Assembly (NCBI GenBank): GCA_029582155.1
Contig: CM055901.1
Span: forward strand, 24,771,657 to 24,835,656
Source: Panopea generosa
Lineage: Eukaryota > Mollusca > Bivalvia > Adapedonta > Hiatellidae
Reading direction: 5' to 3'
DNA: 64,000 nucleotides
The notes under the pieces were generated by a model. It ran no database searches. It saw only the letters and a program-made list of their open reading frames with translations, and was not told where the DNA came from. Position 1 is the stretch's first letter. Every line of letters begins with the position of its first letter. The translations under genes were made by a program, and so were the position numbers. Positions 6,105 to 62,120 of this stretch are shown here, piece after piece.

Positions 6105-6294
6105 TTCAATATTTAATGTCATTTTTATACCATCATGGGTTAACAGACAATTAGTTGAACTAACCATTCTTTCCTGGGATCCTGTAGGGTTAACAAGTAC
6201 TCGAGCACAGCTATCTTCCAAAGTAACTGATAACTTTCCCATTTGAATCAGCAGTGAGAGACGAATAACAATGAGATGCAATGTCATATATCAA
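6105..6294 (-). mobile_element. SINE copy, head truncated
   Basis: Body and tail of the tRNA-derived SINE family also seen at 51,700 and 59,957. Shared pieces read on the plus strand are TTTTTATACCATCATGGGTT, AACAGAC, TACTCGAGCACA and the AACTTTCCCA...TGAATCAGCAGTGAGAGACG block. The element is in minus orientation, and its promoter-bearing head is missing. Confidence 0.75.
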
Positions 6295-6320
6295 AGGACT
6301 CAAGGTCCTGAGAGGCGCCA

Positions 6321-6535
6321 TTTGTTTGTTTGTTTGAATATTTAGAGTCATTGCTATGCCATCTAGAGACACTCCCATCTCAGCAAGTAATGGATAAAGT
6401 TCCCACTTAAATCAGCGGTGAGAGACCTGACAATAAGACGTAATGTCATATATCAATCATCATGAATATTGTGGTCGGATGGGGATTCAAACTCATGAAC
6501 CAAGGATTGATAGTAATATGCTCGCCACAGTATCC
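6321..6535 (-). mobile_element. SINE copy with degenerate head
   Basis: It starts with TTTGTTTGTTTGTTTGAATA, the complement of the ATTCAAACAAA tail of the SINE at 9,577, and runs through the same body to GGGGATTCAAACTCATGAAC, which is the complement of a B-box-like GTTTGAATCCC. Part of the middle is deleted relative to the 51,700 copy. Confidence 0.78.
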
Positions 6536-9576: not shown

Positions 9577-9823
9577 GGCCCGGTTAGCTCAGCCGGTTTA
9601 GCACCTGAATAAATTGAATCCCCACCAAATCTCAGTCTCCCTGATGACTGATAATTATGACACTGATTGCAGTGGGAATGTTATCACCTACTTGCAAATA
9701 TGAGTGTGCTCATTCAAATACTGGCTAACCTTCCAGGATCCAAGGAAAGAGTGGTTAGGTTAAAGTGATTGTCTGTTAGCCCTCGATGGCATGAAGTAAT
9801 TCTAAATATTCAAACAAACAAAT
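9577..9823 (+). mobile_element. tRNA-derived SINE, plus orientation
   Basis: The head GGTTAGCTCAGCCGGTTTAG carries a good pol III A box (TAGCTCAGCCGG). A weak B box, ATTGAATCCCC, follows at shorter than usual spacing, suggesting a small head deletion. The body contains GTGTGCTCATTCAAATACTG, CTTCCAGGATC and GATTGTCTGTTAGCCCTCGA, and the tail is TATTCAAACAAACAAAT. It is the same family as the copy at 59,957 and is consistent with molluscan SINEs; I cannot assign a named family. Confidence 0.85.
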
Positions 9824-9984
9824 TAATTTATAAGTCTGATAACAGAGAGAGAGACCTCATCCATAAAATGACTGTCTGCGATTATAATCATACTTAATGT
9901 AGTCTCACAGAAAAGCATGTAATTTAAAGATATCTGTGCAGTCTTCTCCCACAGCTCTTGTTACTTTCTAGAAATATGTGTTTT

Positions 9985-11275
9985 TAATAGTTCATCTAAC
10001 AGCTGCTGTATAAGTGAGGTCATCTAACAACTGTTGTATAAGTGAGGTCATCTAATAACTGTCGTATAAGTGAGGTCATCTAACAACTGTTATATAAGTG
10101 AGGTCATCTAACAACTGTCGTAAACGTGAAATCATCTACCAACTGTTGTATAAGTGAGGTCATCTAACAACTGTTGTATCAGTGAGGTCATCTAACAACT
10201 GTCGTATAAGTGAGGTCATCTAACAACTGTCGTATCAGTGAGGTCATCTAACAACTGTCGTATAAGTGAGGTCATCTAACAACTGTCGTATCAGTGAGGT
10301 CATCTAACAACTGTCGTATAAGTGAGGTCATCTAACAACTGTTGTATAAGTGAGGTCATCTAACAACTTGTATCAGTGAGGTCATCTAACAACTGTCGTA
10401 TAAGTGAGGTCATCTAACAACTGTCGTATCAGTGAGGTCATCTAACAACTGTCGTATAAGTGAGGTCATCTAACAACTGTCGTATCAGTGAGGTCATCTA
10501 ACAACTGTCTTATAAGTGAGGTCATCTAACAGCTGCTGTATAAGTGAGGTCATCTAACAACTGTTGTATAAGTGAGGTCATCTAATAACTGTCGTATAAG
10601 TGAGGTCATCTAACAACTGTTGTATAAGTGAGGTCATCTAACAACTGTCGTAAACGTGAAATCATCTACCAACTGTTGTATAAGTGAGGTCATCTAACAA
10701 CTGTTGTATCAGTGAGGTCATCTAACAACTGTCGTAAACGTGAAATCATCTACTAACTGTTGTATAAGTGAGGTCATCTAACAACTGTTGTATCAGTGAG
10801 GTCATCTAACAACTGTCGTATAAGTGAGGTCATCTAACAACTGCTGTATAAATGAGGTCATCTAATAACTGTCGTATAAGTGAGGTCATCTAATAACTGT
10901 CGTATAAGTGAGGTCATCAAACAACTGTTGTATAAGTGAGGTCATCTAACAACTGTCGTATAAGTGAGGTCATCTAACAACTGTTGTATCAGTGAGGTCA
11001 TCTAACAACTGTTGTATAAGTGAGGTCATCTAACAACTGTCGTATAAGTGAGGTCATCTAACAACTGTTGTATCAGTGAGGTCATCTAACAATTGTCGTA
11101 TAAGTGAGGTCATCTAACAACTGTTGTTTAAGTGAGGTCATCTAACAACTGTTGTATAAGTGAGGTCACCTAACAACTGTCGTATAAGTGAGGTCATCTA
11201 ACAACTTTTGTATAAGTGAGATCATCTAACAACTGTTGTATCGGTGAGGTCATCTAACATCTGTCGTCTAAGTGA
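9985..11275. repeat. 28-bp minisatellite
   Basis: About 45 units with core GTGAGGTCATCTAACAACTG. Units alternate between ATAAG and ATCAG variants in the middle, giving a 56-bp dimer rhythm. The block with AGCTGCTGTA at 10,001 recurs at 10,531, a higher-order period of about 530 bp. Confidence 0.97.
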
Positions 11276-12439: not shown

Positions 12440-15400
12440 GGGAAAATGGTATAAAATGACCTTTAAAATACTTCACATCATTTGGATAGGGGGGAGAGTT
12501 AGGAAATATGGTACAAAATGATCTTTGAAATACTGCACTTAATTTGGATAGGGAGGGAGTTAGAAAATATGGTATAAAATTACCTTTAAAATACTGTATA
12601 TTATTTGGATAGTGGGAGAGTTAGGAAATACGGTAAAAAATAACTTTTAAAATACTGCACATTATTTGGATAGGGGAAGAGTTAGGAAATACGGTATAAA
12701 ATTACCTTTAAAATACTGTATATTATTTGGAACGTGGGAGATTTAGGAAATATGGTATAAAATTACCTTAAAATACTGCACATTATTTGGATAGGCCAGG
12801 GAGAGTTAGGAGATATGGTATTAAATTACCTTTAAATTACTGCACATTATTTGGATAGGGGAAGAGTTAGGAAATACGGTATAAAATTACCTTTAAAATA
12901 CTGCACATTTTTTGGATAGGGGGAGAGTTTGGAGGTATACAATATAAAATTACCTTTAAAATACTGCACATTATTTGGATAGGGGGAGAGTTAGGAAATA
13001 CGGTATTAATTACCTTTAAAATATTGCACATTTTTTGGATAGGGGGAGAGTTAGGAAATATGGTATAAAATTACCTTTAAAATACTGCACATTATTTGGA
13101 TAGTGGGAGAGTTAGGAAATACGGTATAAAATGACCTTTAATATACTGCAAATTATTTGGATAGGGGGAGAGTTAGGAAATATGGTATAAAATTACCTTT
13201 TAAATACTGCACATTATTTGGATAGAGGGAGTCAAGTTAGGAAATATGGTATAACATTACCTTTAAAATACTGTATATTATTTGGATAGTGGGAGAGTTA
13301 GGAAATACGGTATAAAATAACTTTTGAAATACTGCACATTATTTGGATAGGGGGAGAGTTAGGAAATACGGTATAAAATTACCTTTAAAATACTGTATAT
13401 TATTTGGAACGTGGGAGATTTAGGAAATATGGTATAAAATTACCTTAAAATACTGCACATTATTTGGATAGGCCAGGGAGAGTTAGGATATATGGTATTA
13501 AATTACCTTTAAATTACTGCACATTATTTGGATAGGGGAAGAGTTAGGAAATACGGTATAAAATTACCTTTAAAATACTGTACATTTTTTGGATAGGGGG
13601 AGAGTTTGGAGGTACAATATAAAATTACCTTTAAAATACTGCACATTATTTGGATAGGGGGAGAGTTAGGAAATACGGTATTAATTACCTTTAAAATATT
13701 GCACATTTTTTGGACAGGGGGAGAGTTAGGAAATACGGTATAAAATTACCTTTAAAATACTGCACATTATTTGGATAGTGGGAGAGTTAGGAAATATGGT
13801 ATAAATTACCTTTAAAATACTGCACATTATTTGGATAGTGGGAGAGTTAGGAAATATGGTATAAAATTACCTTTAAAATACTGCACATTACTTGGATAGG
13901 GGGAGAGTTAGGAAATATGGAATAAAATTACCATTGAAATACTGCACATTATTTGGATAGTGGGAGAGTTAGGAAATATGGTATAAAATTACCTTTAAAA
14001 CACTGCACATTATTTGGATAGGGGGAGAGTTAGGAAATACGGTATAAAATTACCTTTAAAATACTGCACATTATTTGCATAGGGGGAGAGTTAGGAAATA
14101 CGGTATGAATTACCTTTAAAATACTGTATATTATTTGGATAGGCGGAGAGTTAGGAAATATGGTATAAATTACCTTTAAAATACTGCACATTACTTGGAT
14201 AGGGGGAGAGTTAGGAAATATAGAATAAAACTACCATTGAAATACTGCACATTATTTGGATAGTGGGAGAGTTAGGAAATATGGTATAAAATTACCTTTA
14301 AAACACTGCACATTATTTGGATAGGGGGAGAGTTAGGAAATACGGTATGAATTACCTTTAAAATACTGCACATTATTTGGATAGGGGGAGAGTTAGGAAA
14401 TACGGTATGAATTACCTTTAAAATACTGCACATTATTTGGATAGGGGGACAGTTAGGAAATATGGTATAATATTACCTTTAAAATACTGCACATTATTTG
14501 GATAGGGGGAGAGTTAGGAAATATGGTAAAAAAATTACCTTTAAAATACTGCACATTATTTGCATAGGGGGAGAGTTAGGAAATACGGTATAAAATTACC
14601 TTTAAAATACTGTATATTATTTGGATAGTGGGAGAGTTAAGAAATATGGTATAAAATTACCTTTAAAATACTGCACATTATTTGGATAGGGGGAGAGTTT
14701 GGAGGTAAAATATAAAATTACCTTTAAATTACTGCACATTATTTGCATAGTGGAGAGTTAGGAAATACGGTATAAAAATACTTTTAAAATACTGCACGTT
14801 ATTTGCATAGGGGGAGAGTTAGGAAATATGGTATTAATTACCTTTAAAATACTGCACATTATTTGGATAGGGAGAGAGTTTAGAAATATGGTATAAAATG
14901 TCCTTTAAAATACTGCACATTATTTGCATAGGGGTAGAGTTAGGAAATAGGGTATTAATTACCTTTAAGATACTGCACATTTTTTGCAGAGTGGGAGAGT
15001 TAGGAAATAGGGTATTAATTACCTTTAAAATACTGCATATTATTTGGATAGGGGGAGAGTAAAGAAATACAGTATAAAATTACCTTTAAAATACAGCACA
15101 TTATTTGGTTAGAGGGAGAGTTAGGAAATATGGTATTTAATTACCTTTAAAATACTGCACATTATTTGGTTAGGGGGAGAGTTAGGAAATATGGTATAAA
15201 ATGTCCTTTAAAATACTGCACATTATTTGGTTAGGGGAGAGTTAGGAAATACGGTATAAAATGTCCTTTAAAATACTGCACATTTTTTGGATAGGGGTAG
15301 AGTTATGAAATACGGTATAAAATTACCTTTAATATACTGCACATTATTTGGATAGGGGAGAGTTAGGAAATACAGTATTAAATTACCTTTAAAATGCTGC

Positions 15401-15598
15401 ACATTATTTGGATAGGGGAGAGTTAGGAAATACAGTATTAAATTACCTTTAAAATACTGCACATTATTTGGTTAGGGCAGAGTTGGGAAATATGGTATAA
15501 AATGTCCTTTAAAATACTGCATATTTTTTGGATAGGGGTAGAGTTATGAAAAACAGTATAAAATGTCCTTTAAAATACTGCACATTCTTTGGATATAT
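12440..15598. repeat. 61-bp minisatellite
   Basis: About 51 units with core AGAGTTAGGAAATACGGTAT and AAATACTGCACATTATTTGG. A variant unit with ATAGGCCAGGG occurs at 12,793 and 13,471, and neighbouring variants repeat in the same order, so part of the array was duplicated as a block of about 677 bp. Confidence 0.97.
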
Positions 15599-19387: not shown

Positions 19388-21955
19388 CCTGTAAACACCA
19401 GAATACTTTGTAAAGGCTGGTAAACATCAGAAGACTTTGTAAAGGCTGGTAAACATCAGAATACTTTGTAAAGACTGGTAAACACCAGAATACTTTGTAA
19501 AGGCTGGTAAACATCAGAATACTTTGTAAAGGCTGGTAAACATCGGAAGACTTTGTAAAGACTGGTAAACATCAGAATACTTTGTAAAGACTGGTAAACA
19601 TCAGAAGACTTTGTAAGGGCTGGTAAACATCAGAAGACTTTGTTAAGACGGGTACACATCAGAAGAATTTGTAAAGACTGGTACACATCAGAAGAATTTG
19701 TAAAGACTAGTAAAATCAGAAGACTTTGTAAAGACTGATAAACATCAGAAGACTTTGTAAAGGCTGGTAAATATCAGAAGACTTTCTTAAGCCTGGTAAA
19801 CATTAGAAGACTTTGTAAAGACTGGTATATATCAGAAGACTTTGTAAAGACTGGTAAATATCAGAAGACTTTGTAAAGGCTGGTAAACATCAGAAGACTT
19901 TGTAAAGAATATATTGTATATCTGAAGACTTTGTAAAGGCTGGAAAACTTCTGAAGACTTTGCAAAGGCTTGTAAACATCAAAATACTTTGTAAAGGCTT
20001 TGTACAGACTATTAAACATCAGAATACTTTGTAAAGGCTGGTGAACATCAGAAGGCTTTGTAAAGGCTGGTAAACATCAGAAGACTTTGTAAAGACTGGT
20101 AAACATCAGAAGACTTTGTGAAGGCTGGTGAACATCAGAATACTTTTGTAAAGGCTGTTAAATATCAGAAGTCTTTGTAAAGACTGGTTAATATCAGAAG
20201 ACTTTGTAAAGGCTGGTAAACATCAAAATACTTTGTAAAGGCCTATAAAATCAAAAGACTTTGTAAAGGCTGATAAACATCAGAAGACTTTGTAAAGACT
20301 GGTAAACATCAGAAGACTTTGTGAAGACTGGTGAACATCAGAAGACTTTGTAAACGCTGGTGAACATCAGAAGACTTTGTAAAGGCTGGTAAACATCAAA
20401 ATACTTTGTAAAGGTTGATAAAAATCAAAAGACTTTGTAAAGGCTGATACACATCAGAAGACTTTGTAAAGACTGGTAAACATCAGAAGACTTTGTGAAG
20501 GCTGGTTAACATCATATGACTTTGTAAAGCCGATAAACATCAAAAGACTTTGCAAAGGCTTATTAACATTAAAATACTTTGAAAAGACTGATAAACATCA
20601 GAACACTTTGTAAAGACTGGTAAACATCAGGAGACTTTGTAAAGGCTGGTGAACATCACAATACTTTGTAAAGGCAGATAAACATCAAAAGACTTTGTAA
20701 AGGCTGATAAACATCAAAATACTTTGTAAAGACTGGTAAACATCAGAAGTCTTTGTAAAGACTGGTGAATATCAGAAGACTTTGTAAAGACTGGTAAACA
20801 TCAGGAGACTTTGTAAAGTCTGGTGAACATCACAATACTTTGTAAAGGCGGATAAACATCAAAAGACTTTGTAAAGGCTGATAAACATCAAAATACTTTG
20901 TAAAGGCTGGTAAACATCAGAAGTCTTTGTAAAGACTGGTAAACATCAGAAGACTTTGTAAAGACTGGTAAACATCAGAAGACTTTGTAAAGGCTGGTAA
21001 ACATGAAAATATTTTGTAAAGGCCGATAAACATCAAAAGACTTTGTAAAGGTTGATAAACATCAAAATACTTTGTAAAGACTGGTAAACATCTGAAGAAT
21101 TTGTAAAGGCTGGTAAACACCAGAAGACTTTGTAAAGGCTGGTATATATCAGAAGACTTTGTGAAGGCTGGTGAACATCAGAAGACTTTGTAAAGGCTGG
21201 TAAAGATCAGAAGACTTTGTATGGGCTGGTAAACACCAGAAGACTTTGTAAAGGCTGGTAAATATCAGAAGACTTTGTGAAGGCTGGTGAACATCAGAAG
21301 ACTTTGTAAAGGCTGGTAAAGATCAGAAGACTTTGTATGGGCTGGTAAACATCAGAAGACTTTGTAAAGGCTGGTAAATATCAGAAGACTTTGTAAAGGC
21401 TGGTTAACATCAGAAGACTTTGTAAGGGCTGGTAAACATCAGAAGGCTTTGTAAAGACTGATAAACATCAGAAGACTTTGTGAAGGCTGGTGAACATCAG
21501 AAGACTTTGTAAAGGCTTGTAAACATCAGAAGACTTTGTAAGGGCTGGTAAATATCAAAAGACTACTTTGTAAAGGCTGGTAAACAGCAGAAGACTTTGT
21601 AAAGGCTGGCAAACATCAGAAGACTTTGTAAGGGCTGGTAAACATCAGAAGACTATGTAAAGGCTGGTAAATATCAGAAAACTTTGTAAAGGCTGGTAAA
21701 CATCAGAAGACTTTGTAAAAATTGGTAAATATCAGAAAACTTTGTAAAGCCTTGTAAACACCAAAATACTTTGTAAAGACTGGTAAATATCAGAAGACTT
21801 TATAAAGGCTGGTAAACATCAGAAGACTCTGTAAAGGCTGATAAACATCAGAAGACTTTGTAAAGGCTGGTAAACATCAGAAGACTTTGTAAAGACTGGT
21901 GAACATCAGAAGACTTTGTAAAGGCTGGTAAACATCAAAAGACTTTGAAAACTTT
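19388..21955. repeat. 29-bp minisatellite
   Basis: About 88 units with core GGCTGGTAAACATCAGAAGA and CTTTGTAAA. Units vary at several positions (GGCTG/GACTG, GAAGA/AAATA), and longer blocks recur (for example near 20,640 and 20,800). No spacers, so not CRISPR. Confidence 0.97.
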
Positions 21956-23462: not shown

Positions 23463-23574
23463 AGCATTTTTGGAATCTGCTGCTAGTCTCGCTGCATATC
23501 TAGCTATGAGTCTGTGTTCGTCATCCATACCTGGGCCTGTCACACTTGTGAGTCCTACACTTGATTTCCCAGGG
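23463..23574 (-). CDS. DTNB: Dystrobrevin exon E8: conserved HRLIARYAARLAA block
   Basis: 112 bp: C completes Ser, then 37 codons. It reads PGKSSVGLTSVTGPGMDDEH followed by RLIARYAARLAADSKNA. DDEHRLIARYAARLAADS is almost identical to vertebrate DEEHRLIARYAARLAAES, the segment just before the coiled coil that binds dystrophin. The acceptor is TTTTTTGCAG. The donor is AATGCT|GTAAGTTG with GT at 23,462-23,461. The longer vertebrate segment LLARAAPAFLKGKGIQYSLN through VLIGLYVNML, which in some isoforms lies between the linker and this block, is absent here although E7 and E8 join in phase. The coiled-coil exons that should follow were not recognised below 23,462. Confidence 0.94.
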
Positions 23575-37818: not shown

Positions 37819-37946
37819 ACAATATACGACAGATCCACCGTTTTCTCAGGCTGTTCTGGAAAGTTGGGTTTCTCATCAAGAGATTTACTGGGAACACAGC
37901 GGAATGATTTCTTTATGGAATGCCCAATCTGCTTTGCAGGCGATTT
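37819..37946 (-). CDS. DTNB: Dystrobrevin exon E6: linker after the ZZ finger
   Basis: 128 bp: 42 codons in phase 0, then GT. It reads KSPAKQIGHSIKKSFRCVPS followed by KSLDEKPNFPEQPEKTVDLS and YI(V). Vertebrate dystrobrevin has WKSPAKKLTNALSKSLSC ... PMFPDQPEKPLNLAHIV, so the KSPAK start, FPEQPEK and the final IV are all kept. The acceptor is GATTACAG. Two overlapping GTs exist at the end; the consensus GTAAGTG at 37,818 down is chosen because it gives the right phase into E7. Confidence 0.92.
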
Positions 37947-39545: not shown

Positions 39546-39794
39546 TATATTATGTCATACTATGACCAACATATGACAGATGGAAGATAATATATATAAA
39601 TGCTATTTAAAAACGTCTTTTATTATTTCTTATAAAGAGTATATGAAAAAAATGTTGTTTTTCGTGTAACTTTTTTTCTAAGTTATACAATAAAAAGAAT
39701 CTTATATTCATGTTCATTTATTATTAATTGAACTGGATACTCAAATCAGATCCTCTGTATACTTTCACTCAACTATTATATAAAAGATTAAATG

Positions 39795-41012
39795 AATACT
39801 TGCTCAATACAATTATATCATATGATACTTACATAGGTGAATACTTGCTCAATACAATTATTTCATATGATACTTACATAGGTGAATACTTGCTCAATGT
39901 AATTACATCATATGATGTATGCACCTGTATAGGTGAATACTTGCTCAATACAATCATATCATATGATACTTACATAGGTGAATACTTGCTCAATGTAATT
40001 ACATCATATGATGTATGCACTAACATAGGTGAATACTTGCTCAATACAATCATATCATACGACACTTACATAGGTGAATACTTGCTCAATACAATCATAT
40101 CATATGATACTTACATAGGTGAATACTTGCTCAATACAATCATATCATATGATACTTACATAGGTGAATACTTGCTCAATACAACTATATCATATGATAC
40201 TTACAAAGGTGAATACTTGCTCAATACAACTATATCATATGATACTTACATAGGTGAATACTTGCTTAATACAACTATATCATACGATACTTGCATAGGT
40301 GAATACTTGCTCAAAACAACTATATCATAAGATACTTACAAATGTGAATACTTGCTCAATCTAATTATATCATATGATACTTACATAGGTGAATACTTGC
40401 TCAATCTGATTATATCAAATGATACTTACATAGGTGAATACTTGCTCAATACAACTATATCATACAATACTTACATAGGTGAATACTTGCTCAATACAGT
40501 TATATCATACGATACTTACATAGGTGAATACTTGCTCAATACAACTATATCATACAATACTTACATAGGTGAATACTTGCTCAATACAGTTATATCATAC
40601 AATACTTACATAGGTGAATACTTGCTCAATATAGTTATATCATACGATACTTACATAGGTGAATACTTGCTCAATAGTTATATCATACGATACTTACATA
40701 GGTGAATACATGCTCAATCCAATTATATCATACAATACTTACATAGGTGAATACTTGCTCAATACAACTATATCATACGATACTTACATAGGTGAATACT
40801 TGCTCAATACAACTATATCATACGATACTTACATAGGTGAATACTTGCTCAATCCAATTATATCATACGATACTTACATAGGTGAATACTTGCTCAATCC
40901 AATTATATCATACAATACTTACATAGGTGAATACTTGCTCAATACAACTATATCATATGATACTTACATAGGTGAATACTTGCTCAATCCAATTATATCA
41001 TACGATACTTAC
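39795..41012 (-). repeat. 45-bp array of the ZZ exon's splice donor
   Basis: About 27 units. On the minus strand each reads GAGCAAGTATTCACCTAT then GTAAGTATCGTATGATAT and a short AT-rich tail. The exon E5 end is TATCTCACCTAT|GTAAGTATCGTATGATAT, so every unit repeats the last ten or so exon bases and the whole donor region. The array touches the exon with no spacer. On the plus strand the 45-bp period keeps a frame open (15-residue repeat), which is a by-product. Confidence 0.95.
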
Positions 41013-41179
41013 ATAGGTGAGATATTCCTTCATCTGATGATCCTGATTGTGGTGACCAGATGTACGACCTCGCCAGAAGCAGTCCTGACACAGTTGGTAG
41101 TTCTGACACCGTTGGCACCGATAACGAAATCCCATAAATGACTCCCTGTGACATCCATCACATTGTACAGGGTGAAACA
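41013..41179 (-). CDS. DTNB: Dystrobrevin exon E5: ZZ zinc finger; founder of the 45-bp array
   Basis: 167 bp: TG completes Val, then 55 codons. It reads [40 protein letters not shown] and GHHNQDHQMKEYLTY. This is a complete ZZ-type finger with paired cysteines CDGC, CQRC and CQDC and downstream histidines in GHHNQDH, the usual Cys/His zinc ligands. Vertebrate dystrobrevin is nearly identical in [21 protein letters not shown]. The acceptor is CTGTTTACAG. The donor is CACCTAT|GTAAGT with GT at 41,012-41,011. The intron opens directly into about 27 tandem 45-bp copies that each repeat the last exon bases and the donor. In-frame read-through past the real donor meets TGA after five codons, so downstream donor copies would truncate the protein. 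Confidence 0.96.
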
Positions 41180-43440: not shown

Positions 43441-44533
43441 GGGGTTATAACCTTAGTATATGGATGAAAGAATCCTTTTGTAGATTTGTGGTGATATTTG
43501 ACAAAGAGTAACTCTGGTTCATTGATAAAAGTATCCTATTGTAGATTTGTGGTGATATTTGACAAAGAGTAACTCTGGTGTATTGATAAAAGTATCCTAT
43601 TGTAGATTTGTGGTGATATTTGACAAAGAGTAACTCTGGTACATTGATAAAAGAATCCTGTTGTAGATTCGTGGTGATATTTAACAAAGAGTAACTCTGG
43701 TGTATTGATAAAAGAATCCTATTGTAGAATGGTGGTGATATTTGACAAAGAGTAACTCTGGTGTATTGATAAAAGAATCCTATTGTAGATTTGTGGTGAT
43801 ATTTGACAAAGAGTAACTCTAGTGTATTGTTAAAAGAATCCTATTGTAGATTTGAGGTGATATTTGACAAAGAGTAACTCTGGTGTATTGATAAAAGAAT
43901 CCTATTGTAGATTTGTGGTGATATTTGACAAAGAGTAACTCTGGTGTATTGATAAAAGAATCCTATTGTAGATTTGTGGTGATATTTGACAAAAAGTAAC
44001 TCTGGTACATTGATAAAAGAAGCCTATTGTAGATTTGTGGTGATATTTGACAAAGAGTAACTCTGGTATATTGATAAAAAATCCTATTGTAGATTTGTGG
44101 TGATATTTGACAAAGAGTAACTCTGGTATATTGATTAAATGTCCTATTGTAGATTTGTGGTGATATTTGACAAAGAGTAACTCTGGTATATTGATAAAAG
44201 ATCCTATTGTAGATTTGTGGTGATATTTGACAAAGAGTAACTCTGGTGTATTGATAAAAGAATCGTATTGTAGATTTGTGGTGATATTTGACAAAGAGTA
44301 ACTCTGGTGTATTGATAAAAGAATCATATTGTAGATTTGTGGTGATATTTGACAAAGAGTAACTCTGGTTTATTGATAAAAGAATCCTATTGTAGATTTG
44401 TGGTGATATTTGACAAAGAGCAACTCTGGTATATGGATTAAAGAATCATATTGTAGATTGGTGGTGATATTTGACAAAGAGTAACTCTGAAATATGGATG
44501 AAAGAATCCTATTGCAGATTTGTGGTGATATTT
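43441..44533. repeat. 61-bp minisatellite bordering a SINE head
   Basis: About 18 units with TTGTGGTGATATTTGACAAA and GAGTAACTCTGG. The last unit runs directly into the tRNA-like head at 44,534, on the side where the SINE body should be. The repeat may therefore be amplified SINE body (inference). Confidence 0.93.
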
Positions 44534-44611
44534 GGCTTGAACCTACAACCTTAGCAGTAAAAAGCTAATGGTCTTGGGATGGCGCCTTGGACCACTCAGC
44601 CACAGAGGACC
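44534..44611 (-). mobile_element. tRNA-Leu/Ser-type SINE head
   Basis: The complement reads TCCTCTGTGGCTGAGTGGTC, CAAGGCGCCAT and, after a long variable arm, AGGTTGTAGGTTCAAGCC. The A box TGGCTGAGTGG (44,592-44,602) and B box GGTTCAAGCC (44,534-44,543) are good matches to class II tRNAs. It sits exactly between the 61-bp and 92-bp arrays. Confidence 0.85.
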
Positions 44612-44712
44612 AGATTTAATGTATCAACTAAAGTAAAATGTTCTATTTGATATCTATTGGTGGCACTTTAAGATTATTACAAAAGTAACTGGTTGGAACT
44701 GGGTTCTTACTA

Positions 44713-47700
44713 GTGACCTAAGCAGTACAAGGTGGTATTGAGATAATGCCATATATCTTTCAGCCATGGAGGACCAATCTCCTGCTTGATATACTGAAAT
44801 GTTCATGACCTAAGCAGTACAAGGTGGTATTGAGATAATGCTATATATCTCTCAGCCATGGAGGACCAATCTCCTGCTTGATATACTGAAATGTTCATGA
44901 CCTTAGCAGTACAAGGTAGTATTGAGATAATGCTATATATCTCTCAGCCATGGAGGACCAATCTCCTGCTTGATATACTGAAATGTTCATGACCTTAGCA
45001 GTACAAGGTAGTATTGAGATAATGCTATATATCTCTCAGCCATGGAGGACCTATCTCCTGCTTGATATACTGAAATGTTCATGACCTTAGCAGTACAAGG
45101 TAGTATTGAGATAATGCCATATATCTTTCAGCCATGGAGGACCAATCTCCTGCTTGATATACTGAAATGTTCATGACCTAAGCAGTACAAGGTGGTATTG
45201 AGATAATGCTATATATCTCTCAGCCATGGAGGACCAATCTCCTGCTTGATATACTGAAATGTTCATGACCTTAGCAGTACAAGGTAGTATTGAGATAATG
45301 CTATATATCTCTCAGCCATGGAGGACCAATCTCCTGCTTGATATACTGAAATGTTCATGACCTTAGCAGTACAAGGTAGTATTGAGATAATGCTATATAT
45401 CTCTCAGCCATGGAGGACCAATCTCCTGCTTGATATACTGAAATGTTCATGACCTTAGCAGTACAAGGTGGTATTGAGATAATGCCATATATCTTTCAGC
45501 CATGGAGGACCAATCTCCTGCTTGATATACTGAAATGTTCATGACCTTAGCAGTACAAGGTAGTATTGAGATAATGCTATATATCTCTCAGCCATGGAGG
45601 ACCAATCTCCTGCTTGATATACTGAAATGTTCATGACCTTAGCAGTACAAGGTAGTATTGAGATAATGCTATATATCTCTCAGCCATGGAGGACCAATCT
45701 CCTGCTTGATATACTGAAATGTTCATGACCTAAGCAGTACAAGGTGGTATTGAGATAATGCTATATATCTCTCAGCCATGGAGGACCTATCTCCTGCTTG
45801 ATATACTGAAATGTTCATGACCTTAGCAGTAAAAGGTGGTATTGAGATAATGCCATATATCTCTCAGCCATGGAGGACCTATCTCCTGCTTGATATACTG
45901 AAATGTTCATGACCTTAGCAGTACAAGGTAGTATTGAGATAATGCCATATATCTTTCAGCCATGGAGGACCAATCTCCTGCTTGATGTACTGAAATGTTC
46001 ATGACCTTAGCAGTACAAGGTGGTATTGAGATAATGCCATATATCTCTCAGCCATGGAGGACCTATCTCCTGCTTGACATACTGAAATGTTCATGACCTT
46101 AGCAGTACAAGGTGATATTGAGATAATGCCATATATCTTTCAGCCATGGAGGACCTATCTCCTGCTTGATATACTGAAATGTTCATGACCTTAGCAGTAC
46201 AAGGTGGTATTGAGATAATACCATATATCTTTCAGCCATGGAGGACCAATCTCCTGCTTGATGTACTGAAATGTTCATGACCTTAGCAGTACAAGGTGGT
46301 ATTGAGATAATGCCATATATCTCTCAGCCATGGAGGACCTATCTCCTGCTTGATATACTGAAATGTTTATGACCTTAGCAGTACAAGGTGGTATTGAGAT
46401 AATGCCAAATATCTCTCAGCCATGGAGGACCTATCTCCTGCTTGATATACTGAAATGTTCATGACCTTAGCAGTACAAGGTGGTATTGAAATAATGCCAT
46501 ATATCTCTCAGCCATGGAGGACCAATCTCCTGCTTGATATACTGAAATGTTCATGACCTTAGCAGTACAAGGTAGTATTGAGATAATGCCATATATCTCT
46601 CAGCCATGGAGGACCAATCTCCTGCTTGATGTACCGAAATGTTCATGACCTTAGCAGTACAAGGTGGTATTGAGATAATGCCATATATCTCTCAGCCATG
46701 AAGGACCAATCTCCTGCTTGATATACCGAAATGTTCATGACCTTAGCAGTACAAGGTGGTATTGAGATAATGCCATATATCTCTCAGCCATGGAGGACCT
46801 ATCTCCTGCTTGATGTACCGAAATGTTCATGACCTTAGCAGTACAAGGTGGTATTGAGATAATGCCATATATCTTTCAGCCATGGAGGACCTATCTCCTG
46901 CTTGATATACTGAAATGTTCATGACCTTAGCAGTACAAGGTGGTATTGAGATAATGCCATATATCTCTCAGCCATGGAGGACCTATCTCCTGCTTGATAT
47001 ACTGAAATGTTCATGACCTTAGCAGTACAAGGTGGTATTGAGATAATGCCATATATCTTTCAGCTATGGAGGACCAATCTCCTGCTTGACATACTGAAAT
47101 GTTCATGACCTTAGCAGTACAAGGTGGTATTGAGATAATGCCAAATATCTCTCAGCCATGGAGGACCTATCTCCTGCTTGATGTACTAAAATGTTCATGA
47201 CCTTAGCAGTACAAGGCAGTATTGAGATAATGCCATATATCTTTCAGCCATGGAGGACCTATCTCCTGCTTGATATACTGAAATGTTCATGACCTTAGCA
47301 GTACAAGGTGATATTGAGATAATGCCATATATCTCTCAGCCATGGAGGACCAATCTCCTGCTTGATGTACTGAAATGTTCATGACCTTAGCAGTACAAGG
47401 TGGTATTGAGATAATGCCATATATCTCTCAGCCATGATGGACCTATCTCCTGCTTGATATACTGAAATGTTCATGACCTTAGCAGTACAAGGTGGTATTG
47501 AGATAATGCCATATATCTCTCAGCCATGGAGGACCTATCTCCTGCTTGATATACTGAAATGTTCATGACCTTAGCAGTACCAGGTGGTATTGAGATAATG
47601 CCAAATATCTCTCAGCCATGGAGGACCTATCTCCAGCTTGATATACTGAAATGTTCATGACCTTAGCAGTACAAGGTGGTATTGAGATAATGCCAAATAT

Positions 47701-48760
47701 CTCTCAGCCATGGAGGACCTATCTCCTGTTTGATATACTGAAATGTTCATGACCTTAGCAGTACAAGGTAGTATTGAGATAATGCTATATATCTCTCAGC
47801 CATGGAGGACCAATCTCCTGCTTGATGTACTGAAATGTTCATGACCTTAGCAGTACAAGGTAGTATTGAGATAATGCCATATATCTTTCAGCCATGGAGG
47901 ACCAATCTCCTGCTTGATGTACTGAAATGTTCATGACCTTAGCAGTACAAGGTGGTATTGAGATAATGCTATATATCTCTCAGCCATGGAGGACCTATCT
48001 CCTGCTTGATGTACTGAAATGTTCATGACCTTAGCAGTACAAGGTGGTATTGAGATAATGCCATATATCTCTCAGCCATGGAGGACCAATCTCCTGCTTG
48101 ATGTACTGAAATGTTCATGACCTTAGCAGTACAAGGTGGTATTGAGATAATGCCAAATATCTCTCAGCCATGGAGGACCTATTTCCCGCTTGATGTACTG
48201 AAATGTTCATGACCTTAGCAGTACAAGGTGGTATTGAGATAATGCCATATATCTCTCAGCCATGGAGGACCTATCTCCTGCTTGATATACTGAAATGTTC
48301 ATGACCTTAGCAGTACAAGGTGGTATTGAGATAATGCTATATATCTCTCAGCCATCGTGGACCTATCTCCTGCTTGACATACTGAAATGTTCATGACCTT
48401 AGCAGTACAAGGTGGTATTGAGATATTGCTATATCTCTCTCAGCCATGGAGGACCAATCTCTTGCTTCATGTACTGAAATGTTCATGACCTTAGCAGTAC
48501 AAGGTGGTATTGAGATAATGCCATATATCTCTCAGCCATGGAGGACCTATCTCCTGCTTGACATACTGAAATGTTCATGACCTTAGCAGTACAAGGTGGT
48601 ATTGAGATAATGCCATATATCTCTCAGCCATGGAGGACCAATCTCCTGCTTGACATACTGAAATGTTCATGACCTTAGCAGTACAAGGTGGTATTGAGAT
48701 AATGCCATATATCTCTCAGCCATGGAGGACTCATCTCATGGTTTATGTACTAAAATGTTA
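44713..48760 (-). repeat. 92-bp satellite amplified from a SINE head
   Basis: About 44 units of 92 bp with very little divergence. On the plus strand a unit has TGACCTTAGCAGTACAAGGT, ATTGAGATAATGCCATATAT, CAGCCATGGAGGACC and ATACTGAAATGTT. It aligns along its whole length to the SINE head at 44,534-44,640 (ACCTTAGCAGTAAAAAGC, CAGCCACAGAGGACCAG, AAGTAAAATGTT). The complement keeps TGGCTGAGAG as a worn A box; the B box is lost. It fills half of the E4-E5 intron. Confidence 0.92.
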
Positions 48761-49247: not shown

Positions 49248-49356
49248 CATTTTCTACCTGGGCCATTCTATGTAGAATGGGCAGCCACATGAGACATTGA
49301 GGTCCTGGGTCAGATACCAGCACATTTAAAAAGTTGTTGATGTTCACACCACTCTT
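49248..49356 (-). CDS. DTNB: Dystrobrevin exon E4: end of EF-hand region, lead into ZZ
   Basis: 109 bp: 36 codons in phase 0, then one G. It reads KSGVNINNFLNVLVSDPGPQ followed by CLMWLPILHRMAQVEN. Vertebrate dystrobrevin has KKVTLNGFLDTLMSDPPPQ and CLVWLPLMHRLANVEN. The acceptor is ATTTTTCAG just above 49,356 and the donor is AAATG|GTGAGT with GT at 49,247-49,246. The exon lies about 500 bp downstream (minus strand) of the end of the 69-bp array and about 490 bp upstream of the start of the 92-bp array. Confidence 0.94.
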
Positions 49357-49950
49357 CTGAAAAATAATAATTAAAGGACTGAATTACTGCATACCAACAC
49401 AAAATGATTATATGAAGCCAACAGAGGCTGATAACACAGCTGAAAACAGAAGACAATAAACTTAAACATTAACACAGAAGGAAATGTATCATGAAATGTG
49501 TCAGCCCATAACACTTTCAACCTTCAAAGCTGATCTTGACCTTAAAACATACAAACCTTAATTTTGCATGTGATACACCTTCTATCACCTGTCTTTAGCA
49601 TTTGTGTGCAGTCTGTCAGTAGTTTTACACTAACAGCTGAGTCAAAAACTATTAACCTCTAAATACAAGATATCGGTGGAACTGATGGATGGTTCCTGAA
49701 CAAGTGCTTGATTGAGTAGTACCTCTATTGTTTGTAAGGAAAGGGGGTGTTTATTTTTTTGCTTTCACGTTTACCATGTTTTTAAAATGTATTACAGGCC
49801 CCAGTCCTACATTATTTAAATAAAAAATATTGTCTATTGTAAAACAAAATCAAGATTCCTTAATGCATTGCACCTAACATATCAAAACAAGCCCTAACTG
49901 ATGTACTGTTGTAGCCAGTTGATGGGCCTTGATGCATTGCACCTACCATA

Positions 49951-50183
49951 TCATTGATTTATTGACTGAATAGTTAGCGTCATTTTTATGCCATCGAGGT
50001 CTAACAGACGATCAGTTAATCAAACCAATGTTTCCTGGAAGTAACTGATAACTTTCCCACTTGAATCAGCATTGAGAGATGAATGATAATGAGACACAAT
50101 GTCGTATATCAATCATCGTGGAGACTGTTGCCGGGCAGGGATTCAAAATCATGACCCCTGGATTGATAGTCAGATGCGTAACC
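49951..50183 (-). mobile_element. SINE inside the 69-bp array, copy A
   Basis: Same SINE as at 51,700, lacking the 34-bp stretch with TACTCGAGCACACCC. Flanked by array units on both sides. TGACTGAATAGTTAGCGTC lies at its tail end and CCCCTGGATTGATAGTCAGA at its head end. Confidence 0.88.
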
Positions 50184-51699
50184 CTACCATATCAAAACAA
50201 GCCCTTACTGGTGTACTTCTGATGGGCCTTGATGCATTGCACCTACCATATCAAAACAAGACCAAACTGATGCACTATTGTAGCCAAATGATGGGCCTTG
50301 ATGTATTACACCAACCATATCAAAACAAGCCCATACTGATGTACTATTGTAGCCAAATGATGGGCCTTGATACATTGCACATACCATATCAAAACAAGCC
50401 CATACTGATGTACTATTGTAGCCTAATGATGGGCCTTGATGCATTGCACCTACCATAACAAAATGAGCCCTAACTGATGTACTATTGTAGCCAAATAACA
50501 GGCCTTGATGTATTGCACCTACCATATCAAAACAAGCCCTAACTGATGTATTATTGAAGCCAAATTACAGGCCTTGATGTATTGCACCTACCATAACAAA
50601 ACTAGCCCTAACTGATGTACTATTGTAACTAAGTAATGGGCCTTGATGTTTTGCACCTACCATATCAAAACAAGCCCTTACTTATGTACTATTGTAGCCA
50701 AATGATGGGCCTTGATGCATTGCACCTACCATATCAAAACAAGCCCTAACTGATGTATTATTGAATCCAAATGAAGGGCCTCGATGTATTACACCTACCA
50801 TAACAAAACAAGCCTAAACCAATGTACTATTGTAGCCAAATAATGGGCCTTGATGTATTGCCCTTACCATATCAAAACAAGTCCTAACTGATGTAGTATT
50901 GAATCCAAATGGCGGGCCTTGATGTATTGCACCTACCATATCAAAACAAGCTCTTACTGGTGTACTATTGTAGCCTAATGATGGGCCTTGATACACTACA
51001 CCAACCATATCAAAACAAGCCCTTACTGATGTACTATTGTAGCCAAATGATGGGCCTTGATGTTTTGCACCTACCATAACAAAACAAGCCCTTACTGATG
51101 TACTATTGTAGCCAAATGACGGGCCTTGATGCATTGCACCTACCATATCAAAACAAGCCCTTACTGATGTACTATTGTAGCCAAATGATGGGCCTTGATG
51201 TTTTGCACCTACCATAACAAAACAAGCCCTTACTGATGTACTATTGTAGCCAAATGACGGGCCTTGATGCATTGCACCTACTATGTCAAAACAAGCCCTA
51301 ACTGATGTACTATTGTAGCCAAATGAAGGGCCTTGATGCATTGCACCTACCATATCAAAACAAGCCCTAACTGATGTACTATTGTAGCCAAATGAAGGGC
51401 CTTGATGCATTGCACCTACCATATCAAAACAAGCCCAAACTGATGTACTATTGTAGCCAAATGATGGGCCTTGATGCATTACACCTACCACATCAAAACA
51501 AGCCCTAACTGATGTACTATTGTAGACAATTGATGGGCCTTGATGCCTTGCATCTTCCATATCAAAATAAGCCCTAACCAACGTACTATTGTAGCCAAAT
51601 GACGGGCCTTGATGCACTGCACCTACCATATCAAAACAAGCCCTAACTGATGTACAATTGTAGCCAGTTGATGGGCCTTGATGCATTGCACCTACCATA

Positions 51700-51966
51700 T
51701 CATTGATTTATTGACTGAATAGTTAGCGTCATTTTTATGCCATCGAGGTCTAACAGACGATCAGTTAACCAAACCAATGTTTCCTGGAATTAAATAGTAC
51801 TCGAGCACACCCAATCTCCGTAAGTAACTGATAACTTTCCCACTTGAATCAGCATTGAGAGATGAATGATAATGAGACACAATGTCGTATATCAATCATC
51901 ATGGAGACTGTTACCAGGCAGGGATTCAAAATCATGACCCCTGGATTGATAGTCAGATGCGTAACC
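51700..51966 (-). mobile_element. SINE inside the 69-bp array, copy B
   Basis: Read on the minus strand: the head with CCAGGGGTCATGATTTTGAA (B box TTTGAATCCC), the body with CACTTGAATCAGC complement and GTGTGCTCGAGTACT, and a tail ATTCAGTCAATAAATCAAT. More complete than copy A. Apart from the 34 bp it is almost identical, so the two arose by duplication. Confidence 0.9.
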
Positions 51967-53406
51967 CTACCATATCAAAACAAGCCCTTACTGGTGTACT
52001 TCTGATGGGCCTTGATGCATTGCACCTACCATATCAAAACAAGACCAAACTGATGCACTATTGTAGCCAAATGATGGGCCTTGATGTATTACACCAACCA
52101 TATCAAAACAAGCCCATACTGATGTACTATTGTAGCCAAATGATGGGCCTTGATACATTGCACATACCATATCAAAACAAGCCCATACTGATGTACTATT
52201 GTAGCCTAATGATGGGCCTTGATGCATTCACCTACCATAACAAAATGAGTCCTAACTGATGTACTATTGTAGCCAAATAACAGGCCTTGATGTATTGCAC
52301 CTACCATATCAAAACAAGCCCTAACTGATGTATTATTGAAGCCAAATTACAGGCCTTGATGTATTGCACCTACCATAACAAAACTAGCCCTAACTGATGT
52401 ACTATTGTAACTAAGTAATGGGCCTTGATGTTTTGCACCTACCATATCAAAACAAGCCCTAACTTATGTACTATTGTAGCCAAATGATGGGCCTTGATGC
52501 ATTGCACCTACCATATCAAAACAAGCCCTAACTGATGTATTATTGAATCCAAATGACGGGCCTCGATGTATTACATCTACCATAACAAAACAAGCCCAAA
52601 CCAATGTACTATTGTAGCCAAATAATGGGCCTTGATGTATTGCCCTTACCATATCAAAACAAGTCCTAACTGATGTATTATTGAATCCAAATGGCGGGCC
52701 TTGATGTATTGCACCTACCATATCAAAACAAGCTCTTACTGGTGTACTATTGTAGCCTAATGATGGGCCTTGATGCATTGCACCAACCATATCAAAACAA
52801 GCCCTTACTGATGTACTATTGTAGCCAAATGATGGGCCTTGATGTTTTGCACCTACCATAACAAAACAAGCCCTTACTGATGTACTATTGTAGCCAAATG
52901 ACGGGCCTTGATGCATTGCACCTACCATATCAAAACAAGCCCTTACTGATGTACTATTGTAGCCAAATGATGGGCCTTGATGTTTTGCACCTACCATAAC
53001 AAAACAAGCCCTTACTGATGTACTACTGTAGCCAAATGACGGGCCTTGATGCATTGCACCTACTATGTCAAAACAAGCCCTAACTGATGTACTATTGTAG
53101 CCAAATGAAGGGCCTTGATGCATTGCACCTACCATATCAAAACTACACCAAACTGATGTACAATTGCAGCCTAATGATGGGCCTTGATGTATTGTACCAA
53201 CCATATCAAAACAAGCCCTAACTGACGACTAATGTAGCCATATAATGGACCGTGATGTATTGCACCTACCATGTCAAAACAAGCCCAACTAATGTACTAT
53301 TGTAGCCAAATGATGGGCCTTGATGTATTGCACCTACCATATCAAAACAAGCCCTAACTGATGTACTATTGTAGTTAAATGACGGGCCTTGATGTATTCC
53401 ACCTAC

Positions 53407-53558
53407 CATATCAAAACAAGCCCTAACTGATGTACCATTGTAGCCAAATGATGGACCTTCGAACACAGCTGTAGGAAGAGACAATACTGCCTGTAAATAC
53501 ATCTCGAATTTCTCCCTCAGAAGCAGTCCACTTGAGTCGGAGATCTGTGTAAAAATAT
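53407..53558 (-). CDS. DTNB: Dystrobrevin exon E3: second EF-hand-like domain; founder of the 69-bp array
   Basis: 152 bp: AT completes Tyr, then 50 codons starting [20 protein letters not shown], continuing [20 protein letters not shown] and ending [10 protein letters not shown]. Vertebrate dystrobrevin has YIFSMISDSSG ... [15 protein letters not shown] ... SARSCF at the same place. The acceptor is TTCTTGCAG. The donor is ATATG|GTAGGT with GT at 53,406-53,405. It is fixed by homology because joining to E4 (KSGVNINNFL) aligns to the vertebrate protein with no gap. The last 51 bp of the exon plus the first 18 bp of the intron are the repeat unit that fills the next intron. Reading on past the donor stays open to 53,266, so the next donor copy (exon end 53,338) would add 23 codons in frame. 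Confidence 0.95.
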
Positions 53559-53996: not shown

Positions 53997-54082
53997 ATCT
54001 AAGTTTATCCAGAAGTTTACCAGAACAAAGATGTGACAGCGCAACCTTCACAGCAAATACTTTAATTCTGCCATGACCAGAA
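53997..54082 (-). CDS. DTNB: Dystrobrevin exon E2: EF-hand region
   Basis: 86 bp: one base T joins E1's AG to make Ser, then 28 codons, then one base T. It reads SGHGRIKVFAVKVALSHLCS followed by GKLLDKLR and the first base of Tyr. This aligns without gaps to vertebrate EGHGKISVFAVKMALATLCG and GKIMDKLRY. It spans the boundary of the two EF-hand-like domains; as in the family generally, the loops are not obviously calcium-binding. The acceptor is ATATTTCAG just above 54,082. The donor is AGAT|GTAAGT with GT at 53,996-53,995. The following intron is only 438 bp, the shortest in the window, and shows no repeat. Confidence 0.94.
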
Positions 54083-58282: not shown

Positions 58283-58450
58283 AATCTCTGCAAGTCACTG
58301 ATCACTTCCCAACATAATCAAAGGTGTCACAGTCCCAAAAGATCAAAATTCTTGGACAATCATCACAGAGATTATGGCTGGACAGAGATCTAAACTTCCA
58401 ACCCCTGGATTGACAGTAATATGCATTAACTACAGAGCCAACATAAGAGA
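58283..58450 (-). mobile_element. Degenerate SINE nested in the TIR element
   Basis: TCACTGATCACTTCCCAACA, ACAATCATCACAGAGATTAT and CCCCTGGATTGACAGTAATA line up with the SINE at 51,700. It is more diverged, so it is older than the copies in the 69-bp array or was under fewer recent duplications. Confidence 0.72.
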
Positions 58451-59956: not shown

Positions 59957-60242
59957 TTGTGCTCTTTAGCTCAGGCGGTAAAGAATCAAACTATCAATCC
60001 AGGGGTAGTGAGTTTGAATCTCCTTGGGGGCCACAGTCTCCATGACGATTGTTTACAACATAGTGAGAGTCATTGTCATTTGTCTTTCACCACTCACTTA
60101 AGTAAGAAAGTAATCAATTACTTGTGGAGATCGGTGTGCTTGAGTACTGGGTAACCTTCCAGGAGACCAGGTAAGAGCAGTAAGGCTACTGATTGTCTGT
60201 TAGTCCTTAATGCCATAAAATGACTAAATATTCAAACAAATA
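59957..60242 (+). mobile_element. tRNA-derived SINE, nearly full length
   Basis: The head GTGCTCTTTAGCTCAGGCGG has a strong A box (TTAGCTCAGGCGG). The B box GAGTTTGAATCTCC follows about 45 bp later. The body contains CCACAGTCTCCATGACGATT, GTGTGCTTGAGTACTGGGTA and CTTCCAGGAGACC, and the tail TAAATATTCAAACAAATAG. It lies in the E1-E2 intron, antisense to the gene. Best-preserved copy of this family in the window. Confidence 0.9.
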
Positions 60243-60349: not shown

Positions 60350-60563
60350 CTGTCATAGGCACTAAGTAGCCAATTTAGTAGCATGTTCACACTGAGAGTT
60401 ACGTCCACCTGTTTGGTGATGGGAACTCTCTTATTTAGTTGTAGAAATATACTGGACAAGATGGCCTCCACTCGAGATGAATTCAATTCTGTCTCTGCTT
60501 CCAAAGTATTAAGACCATTTTCTCTAAAACATTCAATAATGTTCCAGATGTCCACCATATCCA
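60350..60563 (-). CDS. DTNB: Dystrobrevin exon E1: N-terminal EF-hand-like helical region
   Basis: 214 bp: two bases completing a codon (xTG), 70 codons, then AG. It reads DMVDIWNIIECFRENGLNTL ... VEAILSSIFLQLNKRVPITK ... LLNWLLSAYD. This matches the dystrobrevin segment LVDIWNVIEALRENALNNL ... LSTIFYQLNKRMP ... LLNFLLAAFD, the first part of the EF-hand-like module shared by dystrophin and dystrobrevin (Pfam EF-hand_2 type). The acceptor is TTTTCAG at 60,564-60,570. The donor is ACAG|GTAAAG with GT at 60,349-60,348. A tRNA-derived SINE ends about 110 bp downstream of the donor in the following intron, and a 39-bp minisatellite begins about 220 bp upstream of the acceptor. The preceding exon (RIRLSTYRTACKL... 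in vertebrates) was not seen up to 64,000. Confidence 0.94.
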
Positions 60564-60779
60564 CTGAAAATAATAAATTGGTAATGAAAATGTCAGCATC
60601 AAAGAAAATCATTGCAATTCATTCTCATTACAATTCTAATTATAGCGTGTCTATGAAAATGGTTTCATTAAAACTGACAACAAATTTGGTGTAAATATGT
60701 CACTGCATAAAAAGGTGAGTTATATCAAGGTCAGACAAAAAATTTCATTCATGACTGCATGGAAATATTTTCTGAATAT

Positions 60780-62120
60780 ATCTGAATGTGTCTTACATGG
60801 AAAAAAGAGTCTCAATAAGTCTGAATGTGTCATGCACAGAAAGATGAGTCCCAATAAGTCTGAATGTGTCATGCATGGAAAGATGAGTCTCAGTAAGTCT
60901 GAGTGCGTCATGTATGGAAAGATGAGTCCCAATAAGTCTGAATGTGTCATGCATGGAAAGATGAGTCTCAATAAGTCTGAATGTGTCATGCACAGAAAGA
61001 TGAGTCCCAATAAGTCTGAATGTGTCATGTATGGAAAGATGAGTCCCAATAAGTCTGAATGTGTTATGCACAGAAAGATGAGTCCCAATAAGTCTGAATG
61101 TGTCATGCATGGAAAGATGAGTCTCAATAAGTCTGAATGTGTCATGCATCGAAAGATGAGTCTCAATAAGTCTGAGTGTGTCATGTATGGAAAGATGAGT
61201 ATCAGTAAGTCTGAATGTGTCATACATGGAAACATGAGTATCAATAAGTCTGAATATGTCATACATGAAAAGATGAGTATCAGTAAGTCTGAATGTGTCA
61301 TACATGAAAAGATGAGTCTCAATAAGGTTGAATGTGTCATACATGGAAACATGACTATCAATAAGTCTGAATGTGTCATACATGGAAAGATGAGTCTCAA
61401 TAAGTCTGAATGTGTCTTACATGGAAAGATGACTATCAATAACTCTAAATGTGTCATGCATAAACAGATGAGTATCAATAAGTCTGAATGTGTCATACAT
61501 GGAAAGATGAGTATCAGTAAGTCTGAATGTGTCATACATGGAAAGATGACTATCAGTTAGTCTGAATGTGTCATGCATGGAAAGATGAGTATCAATAAGT
61601 CTGAATGTGTCATACATGGAAAAATGACTATCAATAAGTCTGAATGTGTCATGCATGGAAAGATGAGTATCAGTAAGTCTGAATGTGTCATGCATGGAAA
61701 GATGAGTCTTAATAAGTCTGAATGTATGTCATGCATAGGAAGATTAGTCTGAATATGTCTGAAGTGTCATATATGGAAAGATGAGTGTAAATAAATCTGA
61801 ATATGTCATGCATGGAAAGGTGATCTGAACATGTCTGAATGTTTCATACATGGAAAGATGGTCTAAACATTTCATGCATGGGAAGATGGTATGTTTCATG
61901 CATAAAAAAAGATGGTCTAAATGATTCATGCATGGAAAGATGGTCTGAATGTTTCTTGCATAGAAAGATGGTCTGAATGGTTCATGCATGGAAAGATGGT
62001 ATGAATGTTTCATGCATGGAAAGATGGTCTGAATGGTTCATGCATGGAAAGATGGTCTGAATGTTTCATGCATAGAAAGATGGTCTGAATGTATCATGCA
62101 TGGAAAGATGAGTCTGAATA
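60780..62120. repeat. 39-bp minisatellite upstream of E1
   Basis: About 34 units of AATAAGTCTGAATGTGTCAT and GCATGGAAAGATGAGTCTC. From 61,800 upward units shorten and degrade. The period is 13 codons and both strands stay open for over 250 codons, without any sign of coding selection. Confidence 0.96.

Follow-up and report, generated by a model that had tools for sequence, protein, structure and literature searches.

The window analysed here, a stretch of 64,000 nucleotides from the bivalve Panopea generosa, contains a gene read on the minus strand, six exons of which (E1 to E6) can be joined with consistent phases and without a stop codon. A further match, to MDDEHRLIARYAARLAAD, lies at positions 23463-23528. 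In motifs given below, a slash marks the exon-intron boundary.

60350-60563, minus strand: dystrobrevin exon E1
53997-54082, minus strand: dystrobrevin exon E2
53407-53558, minus strand: dystrobrevin exon E3 (152 nt), whose final 51 nt are identified below as founder of a 69-bp array
49357-53406, minus strand: E3-E4 intron (4,050 bp, phase 0)
49248-49356, minus strand: dystrobrevin exon E4
41013-41179, minus strand: dystrobrevin exon E5, with a ZZ-type zinc finger stretch and the donor TAT/GTAAGT
37819-37946, minus strand: dystrobrevin exon E6, with the least certain donor of the gene model

When E3 and E4 are joined at the first donor, 86 residues align without gaps to the dystrobrevin chains of structures 8yt8 and 9c3c. 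The E-values of this match are 3.5e-31 and 2.6e-30 for dystrobrevin and 2.4e-06 at best for dystrophin, and an EF-hand_3 region (PF09069; Pfam E-value 2.1e-25) runs continuously across both exons. Over E1 to E6, 282 residues align to an approximate sequence of human DTNA (dystrobrevin alpha) and 169 of them (60%) are identical, a comparison of which the match to 8yt8 and 9c3c is independent. These comparisons identify the gene as dystrobrevin, as the initial annotation had proposed, its EF-hand_3 region being closer to dystrobrevin than to dystrophin. The ends of E3 and E5 are supported by both homology and phase.

Two arrays across splice donors

The ends of E3 and E5 each recur as part of a tandem array that begins in the exon and extends into the following intron.

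49859-53459, minus strand: 69-bp array, in which the final 51 nt of E3 and the adjoining 18 nt of intron form the unit, with 47 donor positions in register, among them the authentic one (G of its GT at 53406)
49953-50190: copy 1 of a dispersed-repeat insert inside the 69-bp array (taken as 238 bp, limits approximate)
51702-51973: copy 2 of this insert, attributed to the block duplication described below (taken as 272 bp, limits approximate)
39793-41020, minus strand: second donor array, in which the final 8 nt of E5 and 37 nt of intron form a 45-bp unit

The 51 and 18 nt of the first unit are the last 17 codons of E3 and the 18 bp of intron from which the initial annotation had said it was made. 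TRF reports a period of 69 with 87-88% matches in two stretches, with 21.5 copies at 50220-51702 and 21.2 at 52003-53459. The 47 in-register positions, which correspond to the dozens of near-identical and closely spaced donors noticed earlier, comprise the exon itself and 46 intronic copies, 42 of them full-length and 4 partial, the partial ones adjoining the two inserts; at the far end of the array the last unit passes into unique intron. GT is kept at 45 of the 47 positions and ATG/GTAGGT exactly at 30 (the exon included in both counts), so that the earlier statement that each of about 45 copies keeps this motif is too strong. The intron has the length ascribed to it (4.05 kb), but about three quarters of it consists of repeat units rather than almost all, because 49859-53406 also holds the two dispersed-repeat copies. 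We read this dispersed repeat as SINE-like, and more copies or fragments of it lie at 6108-6521, 9614-9827, 58288-58424 and 59977-60239.

Alignment of the units to the exon end, which had been proposed as a check, gave identities of 61-93% (median 88%) for the 46 intronic copies. Without gaps, the exon unit matched the minus strand of window positions 1-40000 at 46% at most, and 20 shuffled exon units compared with the array reached no more than 55%. The exon is the original because the unit peptide belongs to conserved dystrobrevin sequence, 10 of its 17 codons encoding the vertebrate residue in the dystrobrevin alignment, and because splicing at the first donor restores the gapless protein. 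By these comparisons the end of E3 is identified as the founder of the array, which agrees with the earlier proposal that the array grew out of coding DNA. The tetranucleotide AAGG is common to the exon flank, the far array end and the unit junctions (flanks read by eye), as expected if one tandem duplication at a 4-base microhomology began the array; TCA is common to the unit junctions of the 45-bp array.

Mean similarity between 69-bp units stays at 0.87-0.88 whatever their distance but rises to 0.96 at a lag of 21 units, a peak that marks the trace of a block duplication. Blocks of 1,641 bp, dispersed repeat included, are 96.5% identical, and the 16 unit pairs at this lag differ at 10 of 1,103 positions. 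This pattern indicates that many of the 69-bp copies derive from one block duplication. Two haplotypes joined end to end during assembly would leave blocks just as similar, with the dispersed repeat common to both, and the 0.9% divergence of the 16 pairs falls within the range expected between haplotypes. Such inflation would, however, merely halve the E3 array; units inside one block differ by about 12%, so that copies are individually marked, and a second donor array sits elsewhere in the gene. We therefore regard an assembly artefact of this kind as very improbable and retain a block duplication as the preferred reading.

Exon E5, 12 kb beyond E3, ends CTCACCTAT/GTAAGT, and the 45-bp array follows directly. 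Of its 25 in-register donor positions, with the authentic one counted, 22 are exactly TAT/GTAAGT (TATGTAAGT), 2 are TTTGTAAGT and 1 is without GT. Two more repeats, which lie in 96-bp gaps and have altered donors, are excluded from the 25. This second donor array in the same gene is an addition to the earlier finding, and suggests that the first is less accidental than it might look.

Donor choice and constraint on the repeats

The consequences of donor choice were followed by translating the forms spliced from E3 donors 1-8 and E5 donors 1-4. E3 donor 2, an exact ATG/GTAGGT 69 nt on and in phase 0, leaves the frame open and adds 23 codons. With donor 3 a stop arises at the junction after 45 extra codons, and with donors 4-8 one arises after 46, since a base is missing from the third copy; this latter stop lies upstream of donor 4 and would therefore be contained in every longer E3 form. 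At E5, donors 2-4 lead to a stop after four intronic codons, and since this stop sits in the first intronic unit, it should be present in every longer form as well, by deduction beyond donor 4. No translated donor keeps an open frame apart from the first two of E3 and the first of E5; the normal product thus needs donor 1 at both exons, and the sole additional protein-making choice found is E3 donor 2. On these results the first donor is probably the one mainly used at both arrays. The initial annotation went further in stating that the spliceosome must prefer the first donor: a preference can be inferred from the stops that come with E3 donors 3-8, but "must" is too strong, given that donor 2 is in frame and that the human IFI6 gene is reported to offer a precedent for the use of repeated donors.

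It could accordingly be asked whether repeat donors are regularly used, as in IFI6, with E3 donor 2, exact, in phase and open as it is, giving rise to an isoform with 23 extra residues; in IFI6, excerpts of one report state, two downstream repeat units serve as donors and three mRNA species are formed (PMC4526556). All translated E3 forms beyond donor 2 carry stops, however, as do those of E5 donors 2-4, the 23-residue insert would interrupt the region that aligns gaplessly to dystrobrevin, and the units are under no clear coding constraint (see below), so that we consider a functional donor array unlikely. The arithmetic of the unit raises another possibility, namely that the array is part of a long coding exon with a repeat domain of 23-residue units, since 69 nt equal 23 codons, the E3 frame stays open into the first two copies, and open stretches of 297 and 254 residues occur within the array. 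This reading we find hardly credible and have rejected on account of its stops, frame breaks and want of a clear codon signal: the frame is lost near the exon through 68-nt copies and is further interrupted by stops and inserts, stops account for 3 of the 57 distinct derived codons, and known dystrobrevins are without such a domain.

Predominant use of the first donor, the reading that we prefer, does not follow from the strength of the sites. Many array donors tie with the authentic donor in score and two (ATGGTAAGG) exceed it, under a scoring matrix of approximate human frequencies, and the first E3 donor was tied as the least accessible of 30 tested when local folding was computed (0.21, against 0.21-0.77). 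Neither scores nor folding favour donor 1, so a preference for it would have to stem from its place where a defined exon ends, the explanation inferred for published cases of boundary-spanning repeats.

In the E3 intron 32 sites (7.9 per kb) equal or exceed the intron's own donor in score, whereas the E4-E5 intron has 2 such sites in 8.1 kb and the stretch from E6 to the next exon found has 6 in 14.2 kb. This density would suit a sink for U1 snRNP, in which unused donors recruit U1 and thereby slow or regulate intron removal, or guard against early polyadenylation. Against such a role, in neither unit does the donor rank with the best-kept windows, and the E3 intron (4.05 kb) contains AATAAA 3 times and the E5 intron (3.07 kb) 7 times, with no readable pattern; we give this explanation slightly less credence still than an assembly artefact.

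Conservation within the arrays was examined both between duplicated units and along the unit. A first count found 20 duplicate pairs and used 19 (one partial pair was skipped), with 35 differences over 1,308 positions, distributed 11, 13 and 11 over the three codon positions; 6 were synonymous, 28 were not and 1 was unclassifiable. The pairs at 53269, 53201 and 53132, far more divergent than the others, were judged to lie beyond the block duplication and were dropped. In the 16 pairs left, the 10 differences fall 3, 5 and 2 on the codon positions, 2 being synonymous and 8 not. The observed counts are close to the expected synonymous fraction of 0.21-0.24.

Along the E3 unit, the donor 9-mer is exact in 27 of the 42 full intronic copies (the 4 partial units are excluded from all 42-unit counts), above the average window (22.6), and 18 of the unit's 69 windows are exact in more copies than the donor. 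The E5 donor 9-mer is exact in 18 of 21 units, where the average window reaches 12.8 and 14 of the 45 windows do better; for the deviations at E5 3 of the 25 units, which stand beside irregular spacing, were excluded, and for the window counts the exon copy too, which leaves 21. Raw deviations per column amount to 1.22 in the donor against 1.77 and 2.00 elsewhere at E3, and to 0.33 in the donor against 1.25 at E5. Counted as distinct alleles per column over 24 non-redundant E3 units, the rates are alike (donor 0.89, exonic 0.85, other intronic 0.92). By codon position, raw deviations at E3 number 29, 42 and 49, of which last figure two columns (9 and 12 deviations) contribute 21, and distinct alleles 20, 23 and 17. 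Selection on the E3 donors was rejected on the grounds of the similar distinct-allele rates and the 18 better-kept windows, although the smaller number of raw donor deviations hints at weak constraint on the donors. On the whole, the repeats of both arrays look like mostly neutral passengers, although the above-average donor windows, the lower donor deviations in both units and the rise by codon position at E3 hint at some departure from strict neutrality.

Other repeats of the window and the origin of the arrays

Long minisatellites are common in the window. The E4-E5 intron holds 44 copies of a 92-bp unit (44714-48759), which are 71-73% similar over about 64 bp, among the best 12 matches, to the adjoining tRNA-like, SINE-type sequence at 44535-44620; this array may have grown from part of a SINE. 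Others, with units of 28-61 bp and about 18 to 88 copies, lie at 85-3929, 9992-11275, 12441-15595, 19391-21951, 43459-44534 and 60756-61864. Among the 17 arrays and sub-arrays of which the flanks were read by eye, only those at E3 and E5 are flush with a recognisable exon, by a form of recognition that may miss poorly conserved exons. A tblastn match at 19905-19952 (E-value 8.9), within a 29-bp array, was taken as chance. Searches of the window for tRNAs and against Rfam (gathering threshold) returned nothing; no relatives were found in viral contigs, and the one match in prokaryote contigs, of 14 residues and bacterial, was likewise taken as chance.

Two of the 7 recognised exon ends in the gene carry a donor array. 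In a Monte Carlo placement of 17 founder windows against the 7 donors, uniform placement gave 0.09 expected hits and a probability of 0.0036 for at least 2, a value that is post hoc, the E3 array having been picked for sitting on a donor; the fair test considers the second array only, with a probability of 0.088 for at least 1. This simulation misplaced three donor coordinates, those of E1 and E2 by 11 and 22 bases and another by 1, which is immaterial under uniform placement. It is a tentative and rather doubtful proposal that 5' donors are preferred birth sites of minisatellites in this genome and that such arrays recur by mutation bias, possibly outside lancelets; co-transcriptional strand exposure at exon ends may be named as an example of a cause. 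Were it true, the arrays would be natural experiments in the choice among dozens of near-equal donors.

The reading that we consider quite probable is that both arrays are intronic minisatellites founded on an exon-intron boundary, started by duplication at microhomology, grown neutrally and spliced mainly at the first donor. A tandem duplication across the splice donor, at AAGG for E3 and TCA for E5, would have placed a second donor just inside the intron, and unequal exchange or slippage would then have raised the number of in-register donor positions to 47 and 25. A block duplication that included the dispersed repeat would have doubled much of the E3 array, and the copies would since have drifted mostly neutrally with their donors as passengers. 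Main use of the first, exon-flush donor would yield the normal protein, and partial use of E3 donor 2, with 23 additional amino acids in frame, is possible.

Such a pair of long arrays provides a natural test of 5' splice site choice among 25 to 47 near-identical donors, in which the spacing is mostly 45 or 69 nt and the frame outcome of the first choices is known. It also suggests that boundary-spanning minisatellites can recur in one gene, which bears on intron growth and on the origin of new exon ends.

Comparison with known systems

The initial annotation had presented a splice-donor array of this kind as undescribed, a view contradicted by the "mirages" of lancelets and by the human 6-16/IFI6 minisatellite. 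The latter was reportedly the subject of a 1995 paper by Turri, Cuin and Porter, titled as providing multiple splice donor sites. The likeness to the present arrays, a minisatellite that supplies multiple donors, is drawn from this title and a later summary. Zhuo is also said to have described, in 2007, introns that arose from tandem arrays or from tandem duplications in the genome. Cases of introns from tandem duplication appear in reports on the potato RdRp gene (PMC4974935) and on human paralogs (PMC2812944). There, as here, splice signals were carried to new places, but at the present locus an existing intron was enlarged, with no sign of a new one.

Mirages, a term coined in cephalochordates, are tandem repeats spanning exon-intron boundaries, and excerpts of one report place them in lancelet Adh3 and globin genes, BflGb6 and BflGb9 among them (PMC3087553), to which a later paper, again in excerpt, adds troponin C and PGBD5 (PMC3902484). 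The same excerpts describe them as not disturbing regular splicing (PMC3087553, PMC3902484) and as unstable in length, at Adh3 even somatically (PMC3087553). Both arrays described here likewise are tandem repeats of minisatellite type (69 bp and 45 bp), with a unit that straddles an actual exon-intron boundary, so that the splice signal recurs along the array. They differ from the lancelet cases, as far as these excerpts go, in copy number, with 47 and 25 donor positions against 6 and 3 units in BflGb6 and 2-7 and 3-6 repeats in PGBD5, and in location, since some lancelet mirages lie at acceptors whereas here both arrays are at donors, two in one gene. No report of donor arrays this long, or of two per gene, was found in open-licence full text, a body of literature outside which the 1995 and 2002 source papers lie. 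The E3 and E5 arrays are a large new example of a known phenomenon rather than a new phenomenon.
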